This document shows, one piece after another, positions 1 to 21,898 of a DNA stretch of 21,898 bases. This DNA is from a virus. Below the pieces are notes generated by a model. It was not told where the DNA came from. It did no database searches and was given only the letters and a program-made list of their open reading frames with translations. Numbering within the stretch: position 1 is the first letter of the stretch; every line of letters begins with the position of its first letter. Location of the stretch: IMG/VR virus record IMGVR_UViG_3300037963_001753, positions 1 through 21,898 of that record, one strand, 5' to 3'. The position numbers and the translations under genes are program-made.

Positions 1-3000
1 TTTATTAAACTGAAGATCAAAAAAGTCTGCTAAAGTTTTTTCAACCTCTACTACATGTTCAAGCAAAGCTTTTTGGGTACTCGGATCAAAGTTTACATCC
101 TTCAACATTTGTTTAGTGTAATCAATTAGCTTATTTACAAAGCGCATTAGCTCTACACCAAGATCCCTTAAAGGTCTTTCTTTAGTAGGGTCGACATTTT
201 TCCTGTCTGTCCTGACAGATTCAAAAAAAGATTCTGTAGTGAAACGCCCTTTGCGGAGTTGTATCACTTGCCGAACAAACTCGTAAACAATATTAGCAGC
301 AAATAAATCAGATCCCCTAGTCTGTTGTTTGTTTATAATTTTTAATGCTTCGTCTATAAATCTCGGAGAAGTACGATCTAGCTCATTAATTTTACGTAAC
401 ATTCTGTCTGCTTGCTGCCACCTCATATCAGGATCTTTGTAATACATATACTCACCAGCAGCGTCTACTATTTGTTCATTCGTCATATCCATGAACAATC
501 CCTCCATTCTTTTTTTATAAAAAGCACTGAACTCATAAGGCTTTTCAGCTTCTTTACGTCCTTTTATAGAGGATAAAAACTCTTGTCGAATAACAAATTG
601 TTCGTTAGCATGAATTAATTCTTCGGAAATTACACTATACAATGTGTTTTTCCGCTCACCTAACCGAACCTTACTTAGATCACCACTCTGCTGGTCAGGG
701 TTAATCGTGAGTATAATAGACCCTGCGGGAGATATATACTTCCGATTGCCAACCTTTCTCGCCTTTATAAGTAACTCAGAGCTTGTACTCCCTTGTTGAC
801 TAAGCCTTAAATTTTTTCCCGTTCCCGTTAAAATGACTCCAATTTTGTTTAACTTTTCTTTATTACCTTGAGTCCACTGTTTAATTGCTTTTATAACACC
901 TTCTTTTGTTGCTAACTCTTCTTCAGAAACCGTAATGAAATCTTTTTCTTCAGTTCTTGATAAACCTATTCCAATATTTTTAGGGGGTTTTACTGGGTCA
1001 CTCCAAAGATTAGTCCCATACTCAAACTCTCCAGGCAAATAAGTTCCCCGTGGTTTGGGTTCTGGTTCAGCGTCTGGTTCTGGTTCAGCGTCTGGTTCTG
1101 GTTCAGCGTCTGGTTCTGACTTACCCTTGTTCGGATCTTTACCAATCCAAACACCGTCTTCATTTAGTATACCTAATAGTGTTCCGTCTTTAGCTACGTT
1201 AAAGTCTGGGCTTTGTCTAGCGAAGTTTAAATACTCAAACGGAATAACTGGTGGGCTGTTGTTCTCTGGATCGTTTAAAAATTGTTGTAGCTGTTCTATA
1301 TAAATACTTGTTTCCTCTATAGTATTCTCCACAGGGATCTCATCTAAAGGAACTTCAGGTATGTCAGGTTCAGTAGGTTGATCGGTTACCTCTGTAGTCT
1401 GCTCTCTAGCAGCTTGTGTAAATCGCTTACGTAACTCTTCCGCACTCAATGGAGATCCATTCTTCTGCAAATCAGTGATAGCTTTTTCTATTTCCCCAGA
1501 AAGAAATAGGTCAGGGTTTACTGTAGATACACCACGAAGCTTATTAATAGCATCTCTTGAAGCACTTAGAGCAGGGACAGTTCCACCCATAACAGCACCA
1601 ATCTGAGCTGCATGGAACGCTTGCATGATCTTATCTCTCAATGGAGTCTTCTCATCGAGCGCAGAGTCTTGGACAAATGAGTTAACAAATTCGTCCACTC
1701 CTTCTTCGATACCTTCGTTCAACGCATTGGTCATAATCCCTGTAGGGATCAATGACTTTTGAAGTTCGTTGCCTCTTCTTTTAATATACTTCGCTAAAAA
1801 CTCTGCGTGTACCCCACCGCCAACGTCAGTGCCAGCAATTTTATTTAGCACTCTTTTCATGTTGCCGTAAGACATTCCACGTAACAAAACATCTTCGACA
1901 CCACCACGACCAATAGCACTCATGCCAGCGACAATAGATCCAGTCAACGCACCAGCCAGCAATGAATGGCCTAACGCTTTGTCATGCTTCTCTTCATGGG
2001 ACATATCATCAGGCAAAGCTCCGTAGATCGTACCATACATTCCCCCAGCACTTCTATTAGCTGCCGTTAAAAACATACTAGACCGAATGTTGTATCGGTT
2101 TTGGACTAGTTTGTTGTACGCATTTATCGCTGCGGTTGCTCCTTCCTTACCTGACTTATCAATTAAATTCTTAGCAATCTTTATTTCGACTGCTTCTTTT
2201 ACTGACTTACCTGCGGGTACTGTAAACAAACTCCCGACAGCAAGCTTTGCTAAACCTTTGTTAGTTGCCCTTGCTGTAACCCCTGCACCTGTTTTAGCTG
2301 ACGCAAGCATCCCTCCACCGACTCCAGTAAAACGTGATATCAAAGCAGTGGCTGCTAGGTCGGTAACCATAGGAGCTACCGTTGTTGTTATGTCATACCC
2401 TAGCCCTAGCTTGTCTCCAAAGATAGCACCTAACTTCTTTCTCTGTGACTGCTTTCTTTGTTGAGCTACTAAGTAATCTGCTGACTTTTCTCTACCCAAC
2501 AAAGCGGCAAACGAATGTCCAAACCCAAGAACTGCATCTCCTACGGAGCTTTTAAATCCTTCAATCCTATTTGAAACAGCCTTGTAGTTTACTTTCTTTG
2601 CAATAAAGTCATCAATAAAGTCAACTGTGTTATTGTTCCAAGCCCCAGGATTATTTGCTTTTGCAGCATCCCAACTTTTTTCAGTAGCTTTGAACTCAGT
2701 AAATAAAGTATCGAACTCATCAACTCGCCCTTGCATAAACAGTTTTCTCTGCTCTTTGAGCATTTCTTTCTGGCTATCACTAAGTCTGTCATCAGCTTCT
2801 ACGGCTGCATCAAACCTCTTACGTTGTGACATGAGATTGGGGTGAGCAATAACGCTACCCATATCAGTAATCCTAATATTTTTCTTGTCATCTTTAGGGT
2901 CATCGAAGTATTGAAATACACCCTGTAAGTTTGCGTGTCGAGTTGCAATCTCTTTTAAAACACTTTTGATTCTCTCTTCAGAGTAAGTAAACTCTTGCCC

Positions 3001-3951
3001 TAGCAAGCCACGTATTTGATCCTCTGTTTCTACTCCTTGTAAATTTTTCTGTTTGATATACCTATCAAGTAAAAGTTTCTGTACTTTTTCTAGTCCCTCT
3101 CCTTTATCTTCTGCTGTAATAATTTGATCAATACTTTCTGGCCCCTTATCTTCAAACTCTTTTTTAGTTTTAGCGAACCAAGAGTCTGAGGGCTTTATAC
3201 CTTTATACGATTCTAAATCTAAATAAGAAGTTATTAAGTCATTGATCGGCTTGTCTTCTTTGTCTGCCTCTTCTTTTAAAAGTTCATTGAATATTGCGTT
3301 GATCTCATCGTCTTGTCTTATTTGGAAGTTTGTTCTCCCACCCATACCAGCAGACTCTAATCCTTTAGATACTTGCCATAAGTCTCTAGGATCTAATACA
3401 CCACGACCCACAGCTTCTATTGCAGCTCTTTCAGATTGAACTCTTCCAGCACCTTCAAAGTCTTGCTGACCATAATTACCACTACGAACAACACCAAAAC
3501 CTTCTTTCATGGTTATGGTTGCGTATGGGATATCACCTGTATTTAAAAGAATTTCACGAGCTTTATTTGAAGCGTCTAGCTTCTGATCGAAATTACTATT
3601 TAGAAACAGGTTCGCTGCTTGCTCTCCTTGCGTGGCTCTAACTAACTCGATGTCGTCATCAATCGACCTGTTACTAAACGCTGAAGAATTAGAAGCTATC
3701 TGTTGATACTCTTCGTCAGACACTTCTCTGTCCCCAACGATTTGATCTGCATAAAACTCCATCAAAGAAGTCTCTACTTCTTCTGTTAGTTCACCACGTT
3801 TAAAAAACGAAGTTCTAAGATAGTCTACGTAGGAAGGTAGCTTTTCTTCAAAACTTAATGACTCATCACTAAACTGTGTGTTCCAGTCATCAAATGAGTA
3901 AATAGGATCTGAGAGATCAACGGGTGAATCAATAGTGCTGGGATCTGCCAC
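1..3951 (-). CDS. Giant phage virion/polyvalent-like protein, partial (C-terminus outside window)
   Basis: The leftward frame is open from just after the stop of the 421-aa gene to the window edge, giving at least 1317 codons. The first usable start is GTG at 3951-3949 (ATT at 3957-3955 is an alternative); the first ATG is only about 70 codons in, so I take the GTG. The N-terminal third is charged and helical. Around residues 520-560 and 655-680 lie glycine/alanine-rich hydrophobic stretches that could enter a membrane. Near residues 946-963 a proline/acidic linker repeats the unit PDAEPE. At residues 1110-1115 the motif EELIHA resembles a HExxH metallopeptidase site with the first histidine replaced by glutamate. 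Phage proteins of this size next to the terminase are often internal proteins ejected with the DNA, or polyvalent proteins; that role is inferred from size, position and composition. I recognise no lytic transglycosylase motif. Confidence 0.75.
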   Translation of the reverse strand, partial: MADPSTIDSPVDLSDPIYSFDDWNTQFSDESLSFEEKLPSYVDYLRTSFFKRGELTEEVETSLMEFYADQIVGDREVSDEEYQQIASNSSAFSNRSIDDDIELVRATQGEQAANLFLNSNFDQKLDASNKAREILLNTGDIPYATITMKEGFGVVRSGNYGQQDFEGAGRVQSERAAIEAVGRGVLDPRDLWQVSKGLESAGMGGRTNFQIRQDDEINAIFNELLKEEADKEDKPINDLITSYLDLESYKGIKPSDSWFAKTKKEFEDKGPESIDQIITAEDKGEGLEKVQKLLLDRYIKQKNLQGVETEDQIRGLLGQEFTYSEERIKSVLKEIATRHANLQGVFQYFDDPKDDKKNIRITDMGSVIAHPNLMSQRKRFDAAVEADDRLSDSQKEMLKEQRKLFMQGRVDEFDTLFTEFKATEKSWDAAKANNPGAWNNNTVDFIDDFIAKKVNYKAVSNRIEGFKSSVGDAVLGFGHSFAALLGREKSADYLVAQQRKQSQRKKLGAIFGDKLGLGYDITTTVAPMVTDLAATALISRFTGVGGGMLASAKTGAGVTARATNKGLAKLAVGSLFTVPAGKSVKEAVEIKIAKNLIDKSGKEGATAAINAYNKLVQNRYNIRSSMFLTAANRSAGGMYGTIYGALPDDMSHEEKHDKALGHSLLAGALTGSIVAGMSAIGRGGVEDVLLRGMSYGNMKRVLNKIAGTDVGGGVHAEFLAKYIKRRGNELQKSLIPTGIMTNALNEGIEEGVDEFVNSFVQDSALDEKTPLRDKIMQAFHAAQIGAVMGGTVPALSASRDAINKLRGVSTVNPDLFLSGEIEKAITDLQKNGSPLSAEELRKRFTQAAREQTTEVTDQPTEPDIPEVPLDEIPVENTIEETSIYIEQLQQFLNDPENNSPPVIPFEYLNFARQSPDFNVAKDGTLLGILNEDGVWIGKDPNKGKSEPDAEPEPDAEPEPDAEPEPKPRGTYLPGEFEYGTNLWSDPVKPPKNIGIGLSRTEEKDFITVSEEELATKEGVIKAIKQWTQGNKEKLNKIGVILTGTGKNLRLSQQGSTSSELLIKARKVGNRKYISPAGSIILTINPDQQSGDLSKVRLGERKNTLYSVISEELIHANEQFVIRQEFLSSIKGRKEAEKPYEFSAFYKKRMEGLFMDMTNEQIVDAAGEYMYYKDPDMRWQQADRMLRKINELDRTSPRFIDEALKIINKQQTRGSDLFAANIVYEFVRQVIQLRKGRFTTESFFESVRTDRKNVDPTKERPLRDLGVELMRFVNKLIDYTKQMLKDVNFDPSTQKALLEHVVEVEKTLADFFDLQFNK
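1061..1114. repeat. 18-bp tandem repeat, three perfect copies
   Basis: The unit TCTGGTTCAGCGTCTGGT occurs three times head to tail. It lies inside the giant leftward gene and encodes a Pro-Asp-Ala-Glu-Pro-Glu linker. Such in-frame repeats vary easily in copy number by slippage. Confidence 0.9.
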
Positions 3952-3960
3952 GACAATGGT

Positions 3961-5226
3961 TTATTCTGGTTTTGGTTTTATATTAGCTATCTGGTTTATT
4001 CTATTTCTACTCCTCATACTTGGCATAACAGACCTAGTTGTCGTTGTGATTGATTGAGGTAGTGTTCCTCCAGATGAAAGTTCTAACGCAAGTGACTCTG
4101 CTTCTCGTATAGCTTTTTGTGCCGCAGCAACAGTGCTATCTGTAGCATTCCGACTTCCAAAATCTGAACCCATTGATTTACTAGCTTCACCACCAGCGGC
4201 TGACACATCGCTTTTCAAGCCCTCTTGAAGCTCAACGAAAGAAGGAATTACTTTTGGGTCAATACCTAAAGTACGAGCCAGTAGCTCAACTTGGTTAGCT
4301 ACATCTTGTACAGTAGTAATTTTAACTGAACCTTCTATTAGCTTAGACATCGACTTATTAAGTGAAGTAATCTTATTAGTTATTAACTGATTCCTAACTT
4401 TATTCCTATTAGTAGACTGATTTAAATCTCTAGCATCTCTAGCAATAATCTTCAAAGCTTCTTTCTCTGACTCAGGTAATCCCTCGATAGACTCAATGCC
4501 AGAAACAGAATTACTTCTGATGGCAGCGTCTAACGCTATTTGCTGCATCGGATCAAGAGCTTCTTCTCTTGATTTGATTAGCAAAGAATTAGGAATAATA
4601 TTTAATGCGTCTTTAGCTAAGTCAGAACCTTCTTTAGTTCCAAAAAACTTGGGCTTACTTCTTATATATTTAGAAGCCTCTAGGTATTTTTGAGAAGGTT
4701 TTAAAGAGTCGTTAGTTAAAATCTGATCTAAAGCAGAAGCCGCTTCTGGAACCATTGCCTCAGTCTCTCGCTGCTCTCGCATTTTTTTCTGGTTTTCTTC
4801 CAATAACCTTTGCTGCTCTTGAAAAGCAGCATCACTAGCACGTATCCCTTGTAAGGCAGATCTCTCTTTAATGCTTCTGTCAGAGATGTTATCAAACTCT
4901 GCACCATAAGTTGTTGAGATCATTTTCTTTTGATCTTGTGGTAGACCAGATGCTGCTAAATTCCCAAAGAATGCCTGGCGTAGTGGGGCAATATCTTTTT
5001 CATAATCAAAACTTGGGTCAGAAGAAGCAACTCTAGCTGCGTTAGCTAACTCGCCAGCAAACCTTTGCTCTGCACGAAAGGCAGGAGTCATTATAGATGG
5101 TTCATTTAGACGAGCTGTTTCAGCAGCCGCAAACATTTTACCAGCTTCTCCTGAGTAGCCCTTCTTACGAAGTCTCCGAGCTGCTCGTTTTATCTTAGAA
5201 GATTCTCTTCCTACGGGTACAGCCAT
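3961..5226 (-). CDS. Helical phage protein of unknown function, 421 aa (possible internal virion protein)
   Basis: I do not recognise a family. The protein starts with a short basic stretch (KIKRAARRLRKKGYSG) and is then almost entirely helical and charged, with a coiled-coil-like Gln/Glu-rich segment at roughly residues 134-155 (FQEQQRLLEENQKKMREQ). The C-terminal 80 residues are rich in Ser, Thr and Ala and end in Lys-Pro-Lys-Pro-Glu. No transmembrane segment or enzyme motif is visible. The ATG follows the stop of the 428-aa gene by two bases, and its own stop is in frame with, and 9 bases before, the GTG of the giant gene, so the three are surely co-translated. Position and composition suit an internal core, scaffold or ejection protein; this is inference only. 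Confidence 0.8.
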   Translation of the reverse strand: MAVPVGRESSKIKRAARRLRKKGYSGEAGKMFAAAETARLNEPSIMTPAFRAEQRFAGELANAARVASSDPSFDYEKDIAPLRQAFFGNLAASGLPQDQKKMISTTYGAEFDNISDRSIKERSALQGIRASDAAFQEQQRLLEENQKKMREQRETEAMVPEAASALDQILTNDSLKPSQKYLEASKYIRSKPKFFGTKEGSDLAKDALNIIPNSLLIKSREEALDPMQQIALDAAIRSNSVSGIESIEGLPESEKEALKIIARDARDLNQSTNRNKVRNQLITNKITSLNKSMSKLIEGSVKITTVQDVANQVELLARTLGIDPKVIPSFVELQEGLKSDVSAAGGEASKSMGSDFGSRNATDSTVAAAQKAIREAESLALELSSGGTLPQSITTTTRSVMPSMRSRNRINQIANIKPKPE

Positions 5227-5228
5227 AA

Positions 5229-6515
5229 TTACTTCTTGGTTTTTTCTTTATCTTTATCTTGTTTTACTTGTTGAAGCACTGCCCCACGATTAGGATTCAT
5301 GAGACTTGATACTTGAGCGGGAGTTGCATTCCTCAACCCAGAGGACTTCATAAACCTTGCTAAGTTCCTACCTCTTTGAGCAGATGTTGGCATTCCTCGA
5401 CTACTTTCGTATACAGGTTGGTCTAACTTCTCTTCAAGAAATTGTTTAGCTTCAGCACGATCAATGTCTCTACGTCTTTCTTGTGCCGCTGCCCTGTTAT
5501 TTCTAACATAGTTATTAAACTGTTCCGCAGTCACCCCAAGTTTTCTAGCTTTACCGAAAAGCTGTTGTGCAGCTCCACGGTTTTTTCTAAAGTAGTCAGG
5601 GTCTTGCGTCATCAAGTCATCCATCTGTGCAGCTATATCATATTTCTGATTAAGGATGTCGTCTTCACGTTTCTTTGCAGCGGCCTCCTTGTCTTCTACA
5701 GGAGGAGTAGGTGTTTGTTCTGTTGGTTCAGGTTGCTGTTCAGTTTTACCTGTTGAAGCCTCTCCTTCACCTTCACCTTTACCTTTACCTTCACCAAGAA
5801 GTGACTCAACTTTCTTTTTATTTTTATCTTTAGGTTTATCTTCACCTTTATCTTTAAGTTGCTGTTCAGCTTCTTCGAGTTCTTTATTAGTTGGGTTAGC
5901 CATAGAAAGTCCACCCAACCCAACATTTGCCACTTTTCCTTTAAACCCTTTTCCACCTATTCCTAGTGGGTTTACTCGTGCGTCGCTAAGTTCTTGAGCC
6001 TTTTTAGCTTTACCTTGTGCTGTTTTTACAGATGCCCTTCCTTGTTCCCTTGTTTTCTTTAGAACATCTTTTTTACTCGCTAATTCAGAAGAAGCATCTT
6101 CTACCCTCTGTGATTTACTGGGAGATCCTAGTCCTGGGGTTCTTTGCTGTTCTACACCAACTTTTTTCTGCGCTTGTTCTACAGATTCTTTAGCCCCTTT
6201 ATACTGAGAGGCCGAAGTTTGTCTAGCTTTTTTAAGTTGATCAGCCGTTTCTTGTACCGCTTTTGTCGGTTTGTTTGACAATTTAAAAGGCACTTTTCCT
6301 GCTTTTGCTAGTTTTGTAGCTGTGACTCCTTGGCCAAGCCCAGGAATCATTGCTATTGCGGAAGTCCCAGCCTTATCAAATTCACCTTCAGCTGCGTACC
6401 ACAAAGCGTTAGCAGCGTCAGCAAGATTACCTATTGCTGGGAATGTCCCCGCAACGTCAAGAGCTGTATGACCATTTTCTGAAACCCAATCGAATGCTTG
6501 TTTTAAAAAACCCAT
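5229..6515 (-). CDS. Unknown phage protein, 428 aa, with hydrophobic Gly-rich N-terminus and Lys/Glu-rich middle
   Basis: Residues about 18-66 form a Gly/Ala-rich, moderately hydrophobic stretch with the motifs FPAIGNLADAANALWYAA and AIAMIPGLGQG. Similar IPGIG...AD..NA.. stretches are known to me from pre-toxin regions of polymorphic toxins and from phage structural proteins; this is a resemblance, not an assignment. Residues about 75-190 are Lys/Gln-rich helix. The middle (about 210-285) is low-complexity Lys/Glu/Gly then Pro/Thr/Gln. The C-terminal third is charged and helical. There is no signal peptide. It is the first gene after the palindrome-rich gap behind the terminase, and the 421-aa gene follows it after two bases. 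No Shine-Dalgarno site precedes the ATG (upstream is TTTAAATTTAAGTATT). A membrane-active internal virion protein is a plausible guess. Confidence 0.8.
   Translation of the reverse strand: MGFLKQAFDWVSENGHTALDVAGTFPAIGNLADAANALWYAAEGEFDKAGTSAIAMIPGLGQGVTATKLAKAGKVPFKLSNKPTKAVQETADQLKKARQTSASQYKGAKESVEQAQKKVGVEQQRTPGLGSPSKSQRVEDASSELASKKDVLKKTREQGRASVKTAQGKAKKAQELSDARVNPLGIGGKGFKGKVANVGLGGLSMANPTNKELEEAEQQLKDKGEDKPKDKNKKKVESLLGEGKGKGEGEGEASTGKTEQQPEPTEQTPTPPVEDKEAAAKKREDDILNQKYDIAAQMDDLMTQDPDYFRKNRGAAQQLFGKARKLGVTAEQFNNYVRNNRAAAQERRRDIDRAEAKQFLEEKLDQPVYESSRGMPTSAQRGRNLARFMKSSGLRNATPAQVSSLMNPNRGAVLQQVKQDKDKEKTKK
5765..5794. repeat. Hexanucleotide tandem repeat CTTYAC, five copies
   Basis: Five consecutive CTTCAC/CTTTAC units lie inside the 428-aa gene and encode alternating Gly with Lys or Glu (GEGKGKGEGE on the minus strand). 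A Lys-rich A/T-simple stretch follows at about 5815-5860. It is probably a slippage-generated linker. Confidence 0.8.
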
Positions 6516-6658: not shown

Positions 6659-8416
6659 TTACCCAAGGGGGTCATCAGATAAAATTGATGTAAGTTTTTT
6701 CATACTTCTTACTGGCCCTCGTTTGTAAGAAGCACCTTCTATCGGTTCAGCAGCGACTAAATTATGGCGTTGTCTAGCAAGATCCAAGCAAAGAAATGCG
6801 GCATCAGCTAAGTCTGGACTACTACCAAAGCGAGATTTAAACTCTACTTTCGGCTCTATTTTAACACGCAAAGAACCACTTTTTACCATTTCATACTTTC
6901 TAGAAGTCATTTCTTTAGCTAATTCACCGCTTATACCGTATAGTTGTTTAGTCCTAATGAGTTCTTTTCCTACCCACCACAGCTCAGATACTCGATTCAT
7001 GTACGTATCACGGCCTACATTCTTAGAGTTGACTGAAACTTTTTTCTCAGAAGCTTTACCACCAAATGAAACACGTAAAAACTGATCAGACCACTCACCT
7101 GCAAGTACATCGCAGAAAGGTGCGCCAGCTCCTGTTGCGTCTACGGCTATGTTTTCAGGGGCTATTTTCCTTTTTATACAAATGTCCTTCACCTGCCTCA
7201 CAATCTGATAAGTCCTGGGAAGCGACTTGTTGGTGGCATCGTCGATAAGGTGTACCGCTTCTTCAAACTGACAGACAAATTGACCATTTGTGTCATATCC
7301 TACTAGACCAGTATATAAAATCGTCCTGTCTCCACCGTTGGTAAAAGCTGGGTCAAGCCCAGCAATAGCAACTGGCTCACCGACCCATGACGCATGACTC
7401 ATTGATCCTGAGTTACTTAACTCTGATTCAGTGTATATGGCATCCGTCTCATCGCTATCGAAGAAGACAGCCCTGACCATTCGCATATAACCTCTAGAGT
7501 TTTCTCCAAGCAAATCTCTATCTTCAGAGATCTTTTCCTCAGTTGGTAGCCAAGGGAACTTAACTTCACCTGCTAATATGTTTGGGCTTCTTTCTCCATC
7601 AAACCTGACATAAGTACCTCCCCATTTAGTAATCCAAGTGTCATCAATCTCATGGTTTACGCTAGACCACCCGTCTGCTGGCTGACTCCAAGAACCAAAT
7701 GCGTCAAACCTACTGTTGGGGTTCGACATACCTATTAAATGAAACTCAGGGTTTTTTGAAAGGTTGGATAGACCAGCTTGTAGAATAGCTTCACTAAGTT
7801 CACTAAGCTCATCACATATAAGAAAAACTCGTTTCTGTTTAATACCTATAAACTTTCCTACAGCTTCCCTTGTTTTTGATTTTTCTGCTGCAATTAGAGA
7901 TAAACCAGCACGTTCAATCAAAGTACCTTGCTCTGTTAAGTACGCTACGTTACCAATAGAGTCTCGAATCTTTAAAGGGAAGTTGTCTATTACAGCTAGT
8001 AATCCAATAACAGAACCCCATATACGTTTACGAGCCTCTCTCAAAGTCGTTGAAGTTAAAAGGATTAGAGTATTCTGAGGATCTGCCATCCAATTTAATA
8101 TTCCCCAAGCGGCCATTGTATGTGACTTACCACTATTAGCTGCACCTCCAATAGCTACATACTTATTTGCTATAACAGCCTGAATCATTTCTACTGCCCA
8201 GGGGTGCTTTACCATCATTGGCTCTGGAAGATCTTCTCGATTCCAAAGCTCATCACATAACCGCCAAAAATAATATTCTTTTGCTTTAGCTTTTTTGTGG
8301 TTAGCCAATCCGTAGAGTAAAGCAGTGTTTAAGTTACACCAAGGGATAACCATCCCTCCAACATTGGTTGTATTGTTTTCTATAAAAGGCTCAAACGCTT
8401 TTTGTTTACGAGTCAT
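6659..8416 (-). CDS. terL: Terminase large subunit (ATPase and nuclease of DNA packaging)
   Basis: This is the motor that cuts the replicated concatemer and pumps DNA into the prohead. At 585 aa it has the usual two-domain layout. ATPase: Walker A-type loop GGAANSGKS at residues 90-98, Walker B VFLICDE with D202 and E203, coupling motif GMSNPN at 229-234. Nuclease (RNase H fold): acidic residues D355 in IAGLDPAF, D426 in IAVDATGAG, and D535/D538 in SSPDLADAA. It is the first gene of the leftward unit; a probable small terminase subunit starts 40 bases away on the other strand. A TAGACA/TATTTT promoter-like pair with 16-bp spacing sits just upstream. No Shine-Dalgarno site is seen. Confident assignment from complete motifs. 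Confidence 0.95.
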   Translation of the reverse strand: MTRKQKAFEPFIENNTTNVGGMVIPWCNLNTALLYGLANHKKAKAKEYYFWRLCDELWNREDLPEPMMVKHPWAVEMIQAVIANKYVAIGGAANSGKSHTMAAWGILNWMADPQNTLILLTSTTLREARKRIWGSVIGLLAVIDNFPLKIRDSIGNVAYLTEQGTLIERAGLSLIAAEKSKTREAVGKFIGIKQKRVFLICDELSELSEAILQAGLSNLSKNPEFHLIGMSNPNSRFDAFGSWSQPADGWSSVNHEIDDTWITKWGGTYVRFDGERSPNILAGEVKFPWLPTEEKISEDRDLLGENSRGYMRMVRAVFFDSDETDAIYTESELSNSGSMSHASWVGEPVAIAGLDPAFTNGGDRTILYTGLVGYDTNGQFVCQFEEAVHLIDDATNKSLPRTYQIVRQVKDICIKRKIAPENIAVDATGAGAPFCDVLAGEWSDQFLRVSFGGKASEKKVSVNSKNVGRDTYMNRVSELWWVGKELIRTKQLYGISGELAKEMTSRKYEMVKSGSLRVKIEPKVEFKSRFGSSPDLADAAFLCLDLARQRHNLVAAEPIEGASYKRGPVRSMKKLTSILSDDPLG

Positions 8417-18097: not shown

Positions 18098-18400
18098 TTA
18101 AGATTTAGAAACCCTCTTTAAAAAAGTCTCCCAAGCAGGAAAAAATATTTCTTCCATACAACGAACTACTGCTTCTTGATCATAAGATTCAAGCCACCCA
18201 ACTCCACTTAGAAGTAGACTAGCTTCCATCATTTCATGTCTAATCGTGTTTAAAAGCTCTTTACCTTTTAGCCCTTTATTTATTTGAATTAATTTTTTAT
18301 CGTGAAAGTAAAGACCGTAGTCTGGAGAATCTCCGCTAAGAGGAACTACTTCGAGCCGTATACGTCGACCAGCAATAGAGATTGTCTTTGGAAGAGTCAT
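18098..18400 (-). CDS. Zinc-metallopeptidase-like phage protein with HExxE motif, 100 aa
   Basis: The segment LLNTIRHEMMEASLLLSG has the form of the HExxH helix found in small phage SprT/M78-like proteins, but the second histidine is glutamate (H55, E56, E59). A downstream YDQEAVVRCMEE (E76) fits the third-ligand helix of such proteins. The N-terminal half (ISIAGRRIRLEVVP..., YGLYFHDKKLIQI) makes the usual beta strands before the helix. Activity is uncertain because of the substitution. It lies between amidase and nuclease genes, six bases after the amidase stop, so it is co-expressed with lysis functions. Confidence 0.6.
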   Translation of the reverse strand: MTLPKTISIAGRRIRLEVVPLSGDSPDYGLYFHDKKLIQINKGLKGKELLNTIRHEMMEASLLLSGVGWLESYDQEAVVRCMEEIFFPAWETFLKRVSKS

Positions 18401-20103: not shown

Positions 20104-21898
20104 TTATGCGTCTTCTACAACGACTACTTTATCCCCTTTTCGCTCACCATTTACAGTATAATAGTAGTTCAAAGGCTCATCAGTGTTACTTCCAACATGG
20201 ATATTACCATCTTCGTCTATGTGATCTACATATATGTTCTGATTGGGGCCAATAGCTGTAAGCTGTACCGTTACAGAATCCTCTTCAACTAGACCCATCC
20301 AGTATTCAGGACATTCTATAATGCTATCTGAAGACTTACCCCTAAAGTAAACTCCGTGTTCTGGCCCCTCTAAACAACCATGTCTTAACTTCTTACCTTC
20401 TTGAGTTGGGTGATCTATTAAGAAACTCTTGTATGTTCCCTCTAAGTAGTAGGCAACAATGTTTTGGCTAGAGGCATCTACGTTTTTAGAAAACTTAATG
20501 TCTGTAGCAGATCCATCTAGTGTTATATAAGCTGTTACCCCTCCGCTACCATCATCAGATCTGAGTATAACATCCTTATCATTGGCATTGTTATCTATGT
20601 AGAAATCTCCAGTGAAGTTAGCGTGGTAAGAGTTTGTCCCATCATGGTAATGGTAGAAGTCGCCACTAGTTCCTAAAGCTAGTATAGAGTTGTCAGGGAA
20701 CTTAGTAACTGGATTGCCACTGGATACTGACCCATCTAAGAAGAAATAGGTTTCTGTGCCTCCAGAGCCGTCGTCTGATTGGAAATAAATATCACAATCA
20801 TTAGCAGTGTTTTGAATATAAAGGTGACGAGTATTTTCACGGATATACGAATCTGCGCTATCATTAAATATTTGTAAATCACCGCCTGTTCCAAACTGAA
20901 GTGTTGAGTTGTCTGGAAAAGTTGTCCTTGGATTTGGTGCAGCAGATCCGTCTAAAGAAAAATAGGTTGTTACACCACCAGAGCCATCATCGCAATAAAA
21001 AACAATGTCTTTATCGTCGGCTCTATTAATAATATTAAGATGCCCAACATAATTATTAATATTGGTATCAGTTCCATTATGAGCTATAACTAAATCTCTG
21101 CCGTCGCCAAAACATAAAGAAGAATCATCTGGGAAAACTGTTATTGGATAATTGCCAGAATTTAGGGAACCGTCTAAATAAAAGTAGGTTTCAACTCCAC
21201 CGCTTCCGTTGTCGCATCTAAATATAATGTCCTTATCGTCAGCCGTGTTATTTATATAAAGATCCCCTGTAATATTCTCAATGTAGGAATTATTAGAAGT
21301 GTGCTTAATATCTAAATCTCCAGAAGATCCGACCTGTAACTTAACGTCATCTTGCGCTCTGAAGTTTCTATATGATCTGGTTAAAGCACCACCTCCATCT
21401 AGTTGTAAATAGGTTGTTACCCCGCCAGAACCGTTATCACACTCAAGAATAATATCACCGTCATTAGTGTTCTGCGTAATGTATAGATCTCCAGTCTGAT
21501 TACGAATTTTTGAATCTGTACCATCGTGGTGAATAGTCATATCACCGCCACCACTACCAAAGGTTAAGATAGAGTCATCTGGGAATACTGTATATGGACT
21601 ACCACCAGAAAGAGAGCCATCTAAATAGAAGTAGGTTTCTGTTCCACCGCTACCGTCATCGGCTTTGAAAATGATATCTTTATCTGCTACTGTTTGACGG
21701 ATGTAAAAATCACCTGAGTAATTTGTTAAGTAGGTATCGCCTGTGTGTTTGATTCTAAAATCTCTACTATCTCCAAAAGCGAGTTCACTAAGGTCAGGGA
21801 AGACTGTGAAAGGGTTGCCAGAAGAAGCAGATCCATCTAAAAAGAAATAGGTTTCATTCCCACCAGAGCCATCATCGCTTCGGAAAATAATATCTTTG
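20104..21898 (-). CDS. Tail fibre/receptor-binding protein with tandem 72-74-aa repeats, partial (N-terminus outside window)
   Basis: The frame is open from 20104 to the right edge (598 codons); an internal ATG at 21540 is not the true start because the same repeats continue upstream of it. The visible part consists of seven copies of a beta-rich repeat. Each has D(D/N)GSGG.(E/T)TYF.LDGS, then usually FPD.S.L.FG, then a strand pair ending TGDLYI...A.DKDI. Measured periods are 72 and 74 residues. The C-terminal 120 residues are a different domain with FLIDHP, LRHGCLEGPEHGVYFRG and ECPEYWMGLVEED, an end I associate with marine phage tail-fibre-like proteins. It likely makes a trimeric fibre that binds the host surface. 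It is followed by the lysis operon. Confidence 0.85.
   Translation of the reverse strand, partial: KDIIFRSDDGSGGNETYFFLDGSASSGNPFTVFPDLSELAFGDSRDFRIKHTGDTYLTNYSGDFYIRQTVADKDIIFKADDGSGGTETYFYLDGSLSGGSPYTVFPDDSILTFGSGGGDMTIHHDGTDSKIRNQTGDLYITQNTNDGDIILECDNGSGGVTTYLQLDGGGALTRSYRNFRAQDDVKLQVGSSGDLDIKHTSNNSYIENITGDLYINNTADDKDIIFRCDNGSGGVETYFYLDGSLNSGNYPITVFPDDSSLCFGDGRDLVIAHNGTDTNINNYVGHLNIINRADDKDIVFYCDDGSGGVTTYFSLDGSAAPNPRTTFPDNSTLQFGTGGDLQIFNDSADSYIRENTRHLYIQNTANDCDIYFQSDDGSGGTETYFFLDGSVSSGNPVTKFPDNSILALGTSGDFYHYHDGTNSYHANFTGDFYIDNNANDKDVILRSDDGSGGVTAYITLDGSATDIKFSKNVDASSQNIVAYYLEGTYKSFLIDHPTQEGKKLRHGCLEGPEHGVYFRGKSSDSIIECPEYWMGLVEEDSVTVQLTAIGPNQNIYVDHIDEDGNIHVGSNTDEPLNYYYTVNGERKGDKVVVVEDA

Follow-up and report, generated by a model that had tools for sequence, protein, structure and literature searches.

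The virus record IMGVR_UViG_3300037963_001753, whose 21,898 bases are the stretch of DNA analysed here and are called the window, carries at one end the 5′ part of a giant gene. As a first-pass annotation made from the sequence had stated, the frame holds at least 1317 codons; no stop interrupts them, and the frame is still open at the contig end. Near the end of this fragment lies a zincin-like domain in which EELIH stands at the place of the HExxH motif: the first metal-ligand His is replaced by Glu, and the second-position Glu (E2), the fifth-position His (H5) and the presumed Glu of the third ligand are unchanged. The gene is probably the 5′ part of a giant, multi-domain protein that is ejected with the phage DNA, of the polyvalent type and similar to gp50 of phage N4, with a zincin-derived module, in a lineage of uncultured tailed phages.

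The link to a terminase made by the first-pass annotation was borne out, as the gene for the terminase large subunit (TerL) is found 2.7 kb upstream of the giant, with two genes in between. These encode proteins of 428 and 421 amino acids (aa) and are followed directly by the giant, the three being separated by gaps of 2 and 9 bases. Neither showed homology to known ejection proteins or to families in Pfam or PHROGs. In layout, the block resembles three-gene ejection operons (T7 gp14-15-16, N4 gp50-51-52). In T7- and P22-like phages, the ejection proteins are encoded by a small operon that ends with the largest gene (PMC8954989), and gp50-gp51-gp52 of N4 form one ejection cassette (PMC12633501). 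From its gene order, the block downstream of TerL may serve as an ejection operon.

Table 1. Features of the giant gene and its neighbours in the window
Feature	Position	Strand	Details
Giant gene, 5′ 1317 codons	1..3951	minus	GTG start, frame 3951..1, off contig end
N-terminal block, residues 1 to ~870, common to all relatives	1342..3951	minus	BLAST and alignment A1
Gly-rich, weakly hydrophobic patch, residues 520-560	2272..2394	minus
Conserved DDMSHEEKHDKALGH stretch preceding the 663-682 patch	1966..2010	minus	contains HEEKH look-alike
Hydrophobic patch, residues 663-682	1906..1965	minus	Kyte-Doolittle
Acidic Pro-Asp-Ala-Glu repeat linker, residues 941-968 (EPDAEPEPDAEP...)	1048..1131	minus
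Zincin-like domain, family C, residues 1013-1312	16..915	minus	hidden Markov model (HMM); homologous to family B
EELIH motif, residues 1110-1114, at HExxH position	610..624	minus	EELIHA at 1110-1115
Glu1224 (IVYEFVRQ), candidate third metal ligand	280..282	minus	21/21 in alignment of families B and C
421-aa gene directly upstream of giant	3961..5226	minus	without family match; candidate ejection partner
428-aa gene	5229..6515	minus	without family match; candidate ejection partner
TerL	6659..8416	minus	phrog_2 E=1.7e-16

The repeated acidic linker reported for the protein was found, and of its two supposed membrane-like patches one was clear. In Kyte-Doolittle profiles (19-residue window, threshold 1.5), residues 663-682 were the only patch above the threshold. 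Residues 520-560 are Gly-rich and weaker, staying under 1.5, while their counterpart in a relative (L002, residues 532-552) exceeds it. The HEEKH of the N-terminal block was rejected as a metal site, as it falls beyond the limits of the zincin domain and shows no conservation of that kind. The giant had no real match in Pfam, PHROGs or PDB sequences, its matches to Trypan_PARP and phrog_33317 reflecting merely the acidic repeat, and tblastn of the fragment gave no match among 50,697 phages.

Searches for loci related to the giant and to TerL (designated L002 and so on) yielded 14 and 70, respectively, a sample of tens of contigs of uncultured phages, up to about 67 kb long. Scans with four zincin regions added few further loci, and alignment A1 was too diverged to serve pattern scans. 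L002 is collinear with all 1317 aa of the window fragment at 45% identity. The complete relatives are single frames of 2725-5946 aa, 2 to 4.5 times the part visible in the window, and the giant frame starts 1859-3380 bp after TerL in 26/26 loci measured. BLAST among the relatives distinguished an N-terminal block (N-block), a C-terminal block of ~1100 aa (C-block) and, between them, a variable middle in which the zincin-like domains lie; the window fragment covers the N-block and the beginning of the middle. No portal or capsid gene was recognised downstream of the giant in the two relatives scanned. A TerL pattern scan of bacterial and archaeal genomes gave no relative and hence no host.

The single 5946-aa frame of L097 (contig 3300030102_005966) accounts for about 28% of the 63,679 bases of its contig, illustrating the share that one gene is able to occupy. 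Two interruptions were seen among the relatives. One in-frame TAG splits the giant of L104, and also that of L007, into 1971 and 737 aa, where the related L005 has an unbroken 2725-aa frame; sequencing error, a pseudogene and stop readthrough are alternative explanations. A frameshift divides the giant of L014/L089 (3065 + 1229 aa) at a place where the near-identical L013/L012 are continuous, and is likely an assembly error.

We sorted the zincin-like domains into family A, the first zincin of the larger relatives, family B, their second zincin, and family C, the domain of the window. Families B and C are homologous (hhalign E=5e-9; the family B HMM matches the family C domain of L002 at 6e-5). 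No connection between A and B was found by hhalign, and the two were therefore handled apart. At the place aligned with the window's EELIH, whose presence within EELIHA was confirmed, HExxH is intact in L004 (HELIH), L093 (HEMVH), L005 (HELIH), L104 (HELLH) and L099 (HEIIH). Since about 0.08 [HE]ExxH motifs are expected by chance in a protein of this composition, and close relatives keep HExxH at the aligned place, EELIH is more than a chance occurrence. The mutated HExxH-type motif proposed earlier is thus borne out as a changed HExxH within a zincin-like domain; it is not a one-off mutation, as Glu recurs across the family.

Residues at position 1 of the motif were counted from the HMM alignment without a motif filter. 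Family A (n=19) has 14 His and 5 Glu, family B (n=22) has 15 Glu, 4 His and 3 decayed copies (R, R, N), and family C (n=7) has 5 His and 2 Glu, with the window's EELIH on the Glu side. Among the 45 domains that keep ExxH, position 1 is His in 23, Glu in 22 and no other residue, and is encoded by CAY or GAR only. This restriction to His and Glu argues for a retained metal site and not for random decay. E2 and H5 are present in 25/25 non-redundant B and C domains and the distal Glu in 21/21. The three decayed family B copies, which are the second copies of L002, L093 and L099, lost position 1, E2 and H5 together, and mostly the third Glu too, so that decay in family B is recognisable. These copies belong to the same clade as the window, where family C is present instead; here one module looks to have been replaced by another.

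The distribution of His and Glu requires at least 4 switches in families B and C on the N-block tree, or 5 on the poorly resolved domain tree, and 2 in family A. A back-of-envelope estimate from a substitution matrix, which does not model relatedness or sampling, put the chance that a replaced His becomes Glu at about 8%, and that of a replaced Glu becoming His at 3.5%. Repeated switching confined to His and Glu is therefore unlikely to result from drift.

Judged by its sequence, the zincin module looks re-tooled, not broken. The first-pass annotation had suggested either an inactive module or another metal set, and the kept site residues would favour an alternative metal site over simple inactivity. 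A working site of this kind in the EExxH domain, taken alone, comes close to an even prospect. The wider proposal, that EExxH is a recurrently evolved Glu/His/Glu metal centre in the zincin fold, active with a non-zinc metal, in ejected giants of up to 5946 aa, is tentative and rather unlikely as a whole. Of the hallmarks of gluzincins, the window domain lacks HExxH with both His ligands and has the downstream Glu as candidate third ligand (Glu1224). In ZIP8/ZIP14, a HEXXH metal motif likewise has Glu in place of its first His, and EEXXH versus HEXXH is linked to Mn transport (PMC10457451); these are, however, transporters of unrelated fold, and offer a parallel for the tuning of metal use without being relatives.

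Alternatively, the same ejected giant could carry an EExxH domain that binds no metal and acts as a structural or binding module, the Glu at position 1 being tolerated or structurally favoured. We regard this pseudoenzyme as possible but less likely than not. The full decay of the B copies named above shows that loss happens in this family, and L095, with EExxH copies only, and L002, with no HExxH in any zincin domain, indicate that the canonical site is dispensable. Moreover, Lenart et al. (PMC3650047) count the change of the first His to Glu (H1 -> E), often seen in M2 peptidases, among the zincin substitutions that recur and whose role is unknown. Yet the EExxH class keeps E2, H5 and the third-ligand Glu across highly diverged domains, and position 1 shows nothing but His or Glu even though His -> Glu takes two base changes, without a Gln or Asp intermediate having been seen.

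A predicted fold was obtained for the homologous family B domain of L012 (EELAH), with a predicted local distance difference test score (pLDDT) of 80.5 and a predicted template modelling score (pTM) of 0.75. In the model, a first helix is followed by three strands, then by the helix with the motif and, further on, by a helix carrying the Glu, which is the order of the zincin core elements as given by Iyer et al. (PMC5512222). Its five best rows in VIA were all gluzincins, namely the minigluzincins projannalysin and proabylysin (both Z 6.0) and selecase (5.6/5.3), and the metallopeptidase domain of ArdC (5.2). Families B and C differ from these proteins in that ligand 1 is either Glu or His, and no sequence match connects them. 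Moderate when taken alone, the structural match is coherent with the motif and with the sequence homology to HExxH domains.

The larger relatives provide a connection to N4. The ejected gp50 of this phage comprises an N-terminal domain, an RNA polymerase (RNAP), a C1 domain with HExxH and a large helical C2 (PMC12633501). Family A matched the C1 domains of nine N4-like sequences with hhalign E values of 1e-12 to 1e-13 (reversed control 0.07), and reciprocal HMM matches of N4-like C1 fell on the family A sites in eight relatives' frames. The giants and gp50 (Schitoviridae) also have in common a comparable layout, giant size and adjoining smaller genes of one block. In contrast to N4, the zincin of the window is of family C/B with EExxH, whereas all nine N4-like C1 domains have HExxH; its match to N4-like C1 is weak (p 0.0007-0.003, probability 10%).

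With an N4-type zincin in relatives (E about 1e-12), a similar succession of N-block, middle, zincin and ~1100-aa C-block, and weak profile matches of N to N and C to C, the giant might be a true N4-type virion RNA polymerase (vRNAP) whose RNAP part lies beyond the window. However, an RNAP profile built from nine N4-like proteins had no convincing match in any giant searched, the best (independent E value 0.006) covering 54 positions within the C-block, which makes a vRNAP improbable.

Kinship to polyvalent proteins emerged from other parts of the giants. The domains ART-PolyVal, ddrB-ParB and LPD characterise these proteins, which Iyer et al. 2017 (PMC5512222) propose to enter the host with the DNA, partly from cases like N4 vRNAP. 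The C-block matches WPJ21803 of Pseudoalteromonas phage vB_Pun_Y3 (tblastn 4e-11; HMM 7e-78, 16-protein set). ART-PolyVal is found in WPJ21803 below the cut-off (2.3e-6), and the adjoining WPJ21802 has ddrB-ParB, LPD5, LPD1 and ART-PolyVal above cut-offs. Among the giants, L088 contains ART-PolyVal above the cut-off (7.6e-13) at residues 3081-3274, between its two zincins, and thus at least two disparate enzyme-like domains; one zincin-like domain was recognised in the window fragment, and the near relative L013 (P0003) had no ART-PolyVal match in Pfam. With one zincin family of the N4 vRNAP type and ART-PolyVal in one relative, the earlier suggestion that the domains of this protein are not described did not hold for several parts. 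Its multi-module design, by contrast, appears well placed with the multi-domain polyvalent-type proteins. Like these, the giants are very large, contain one or two zincin-like domains each and are encoded near the terminase, at most 3.4 kb after TerL in 26/26 loci, the portal not having been located. Unlike them, the window protein lacks LPD and ddrB domains and has EExxH, which the peptidase section of PMC5512222 does not mention.

A tape-measure or other ordinary tail protein with an incidental motif would likewise be large, have hydrophobic patches and be encoded beside the terminase. Nevertheless, no tail or tape-measure family, named in the first-pass annotation as the match that would overturn its proposal, was found in Pfam or PHROGs. 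The spread of lengths among the related phages, 2725 to 5946 aa, and the domains that the giants have in common with polyvalent proteins and with the zincin of N4 vRNAP also speak against it, and we consider a tail protein very improbable.

Several observations weigh against an ejected giant with a functional zincin-derived site. The C-block of the window's gene is absent from this contig and was deduced from the relatives, because the window lacks the 3′ half of the gene. None of 8 related records matched MPTase-PolyVal (PF18818) at E<=1. The N-block matched the N4 N-terminal domain at p 0.007 and the C-block matched C2 at p 0.0045 (reversed or crossed controls 0.12-0.88); as these matches are weak, homology to gp50 over the whole length is no more than suggested. 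H1 -> E is a known type of substitution in zincins thought to be inactive (PMC3650047). An AlphaFold model of the window slice 985-1317 (pLDDT 70.6) gave no zincin match, its VIA rows being globins and helical bundles (Z<=4.5). Foldseek found no significant match in the PDB for either model, and the Z of 6 for L012 is moderate and comes from re-ranking Foldseek's list. A gluzincin-like fold, expected by the first-pass annotation, is thus indicated as a minimal zincin core by the L012 model and not by the window's own slice. The globin and helical-bundle rows of the latter probably represent common helix arrangements, and absence of a zincin among them does not exclude a zincin fold.

As an ejected polyvalent-type protein, the giant would be a virion component that passes into the host together with the phage DNA. 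Its N-block, with the hydrophobic patches, may interact with the channel or with the inner membrane while the DNA is delivered. The variable middle holds exchangeable modules, among them zincin-like domains and, in a single relative, also an ADP-ribosyltransferase domain; once delivered, these modules could have host proteins or the giant itself as targets. In the window zincin, the putative Glu/His/Glu ligand set may be adapted to a non-zinc metal, consistent with the occurrence of His and Glu alone at position 1. The conserved C-block, a module shared among the relatives, may have a part in packaging or regulation. The giants tie a lineage of uncultured phages to N4-type ejected giants and to polyvalent proteins. 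Their zincin-like domains, which are homologous, carry either His or Glu at a single metal ligand and have switched several times, offer a direct test of the substituted zincin motifs, long noted and without a known role.

Two further genes of the window, both on the minus strand, were noted. At 18098-18400, a 100-aa protein (phrog_1233, 5e-5) contains RHEMMEA, a HExxE variant of the zincin-like motif. At 20104-21897, a tail-fibre-like protein is composed of repeated units (DGSGG.ETYF.LDGS) and has a conserved C-terminal end (phrog_17490).

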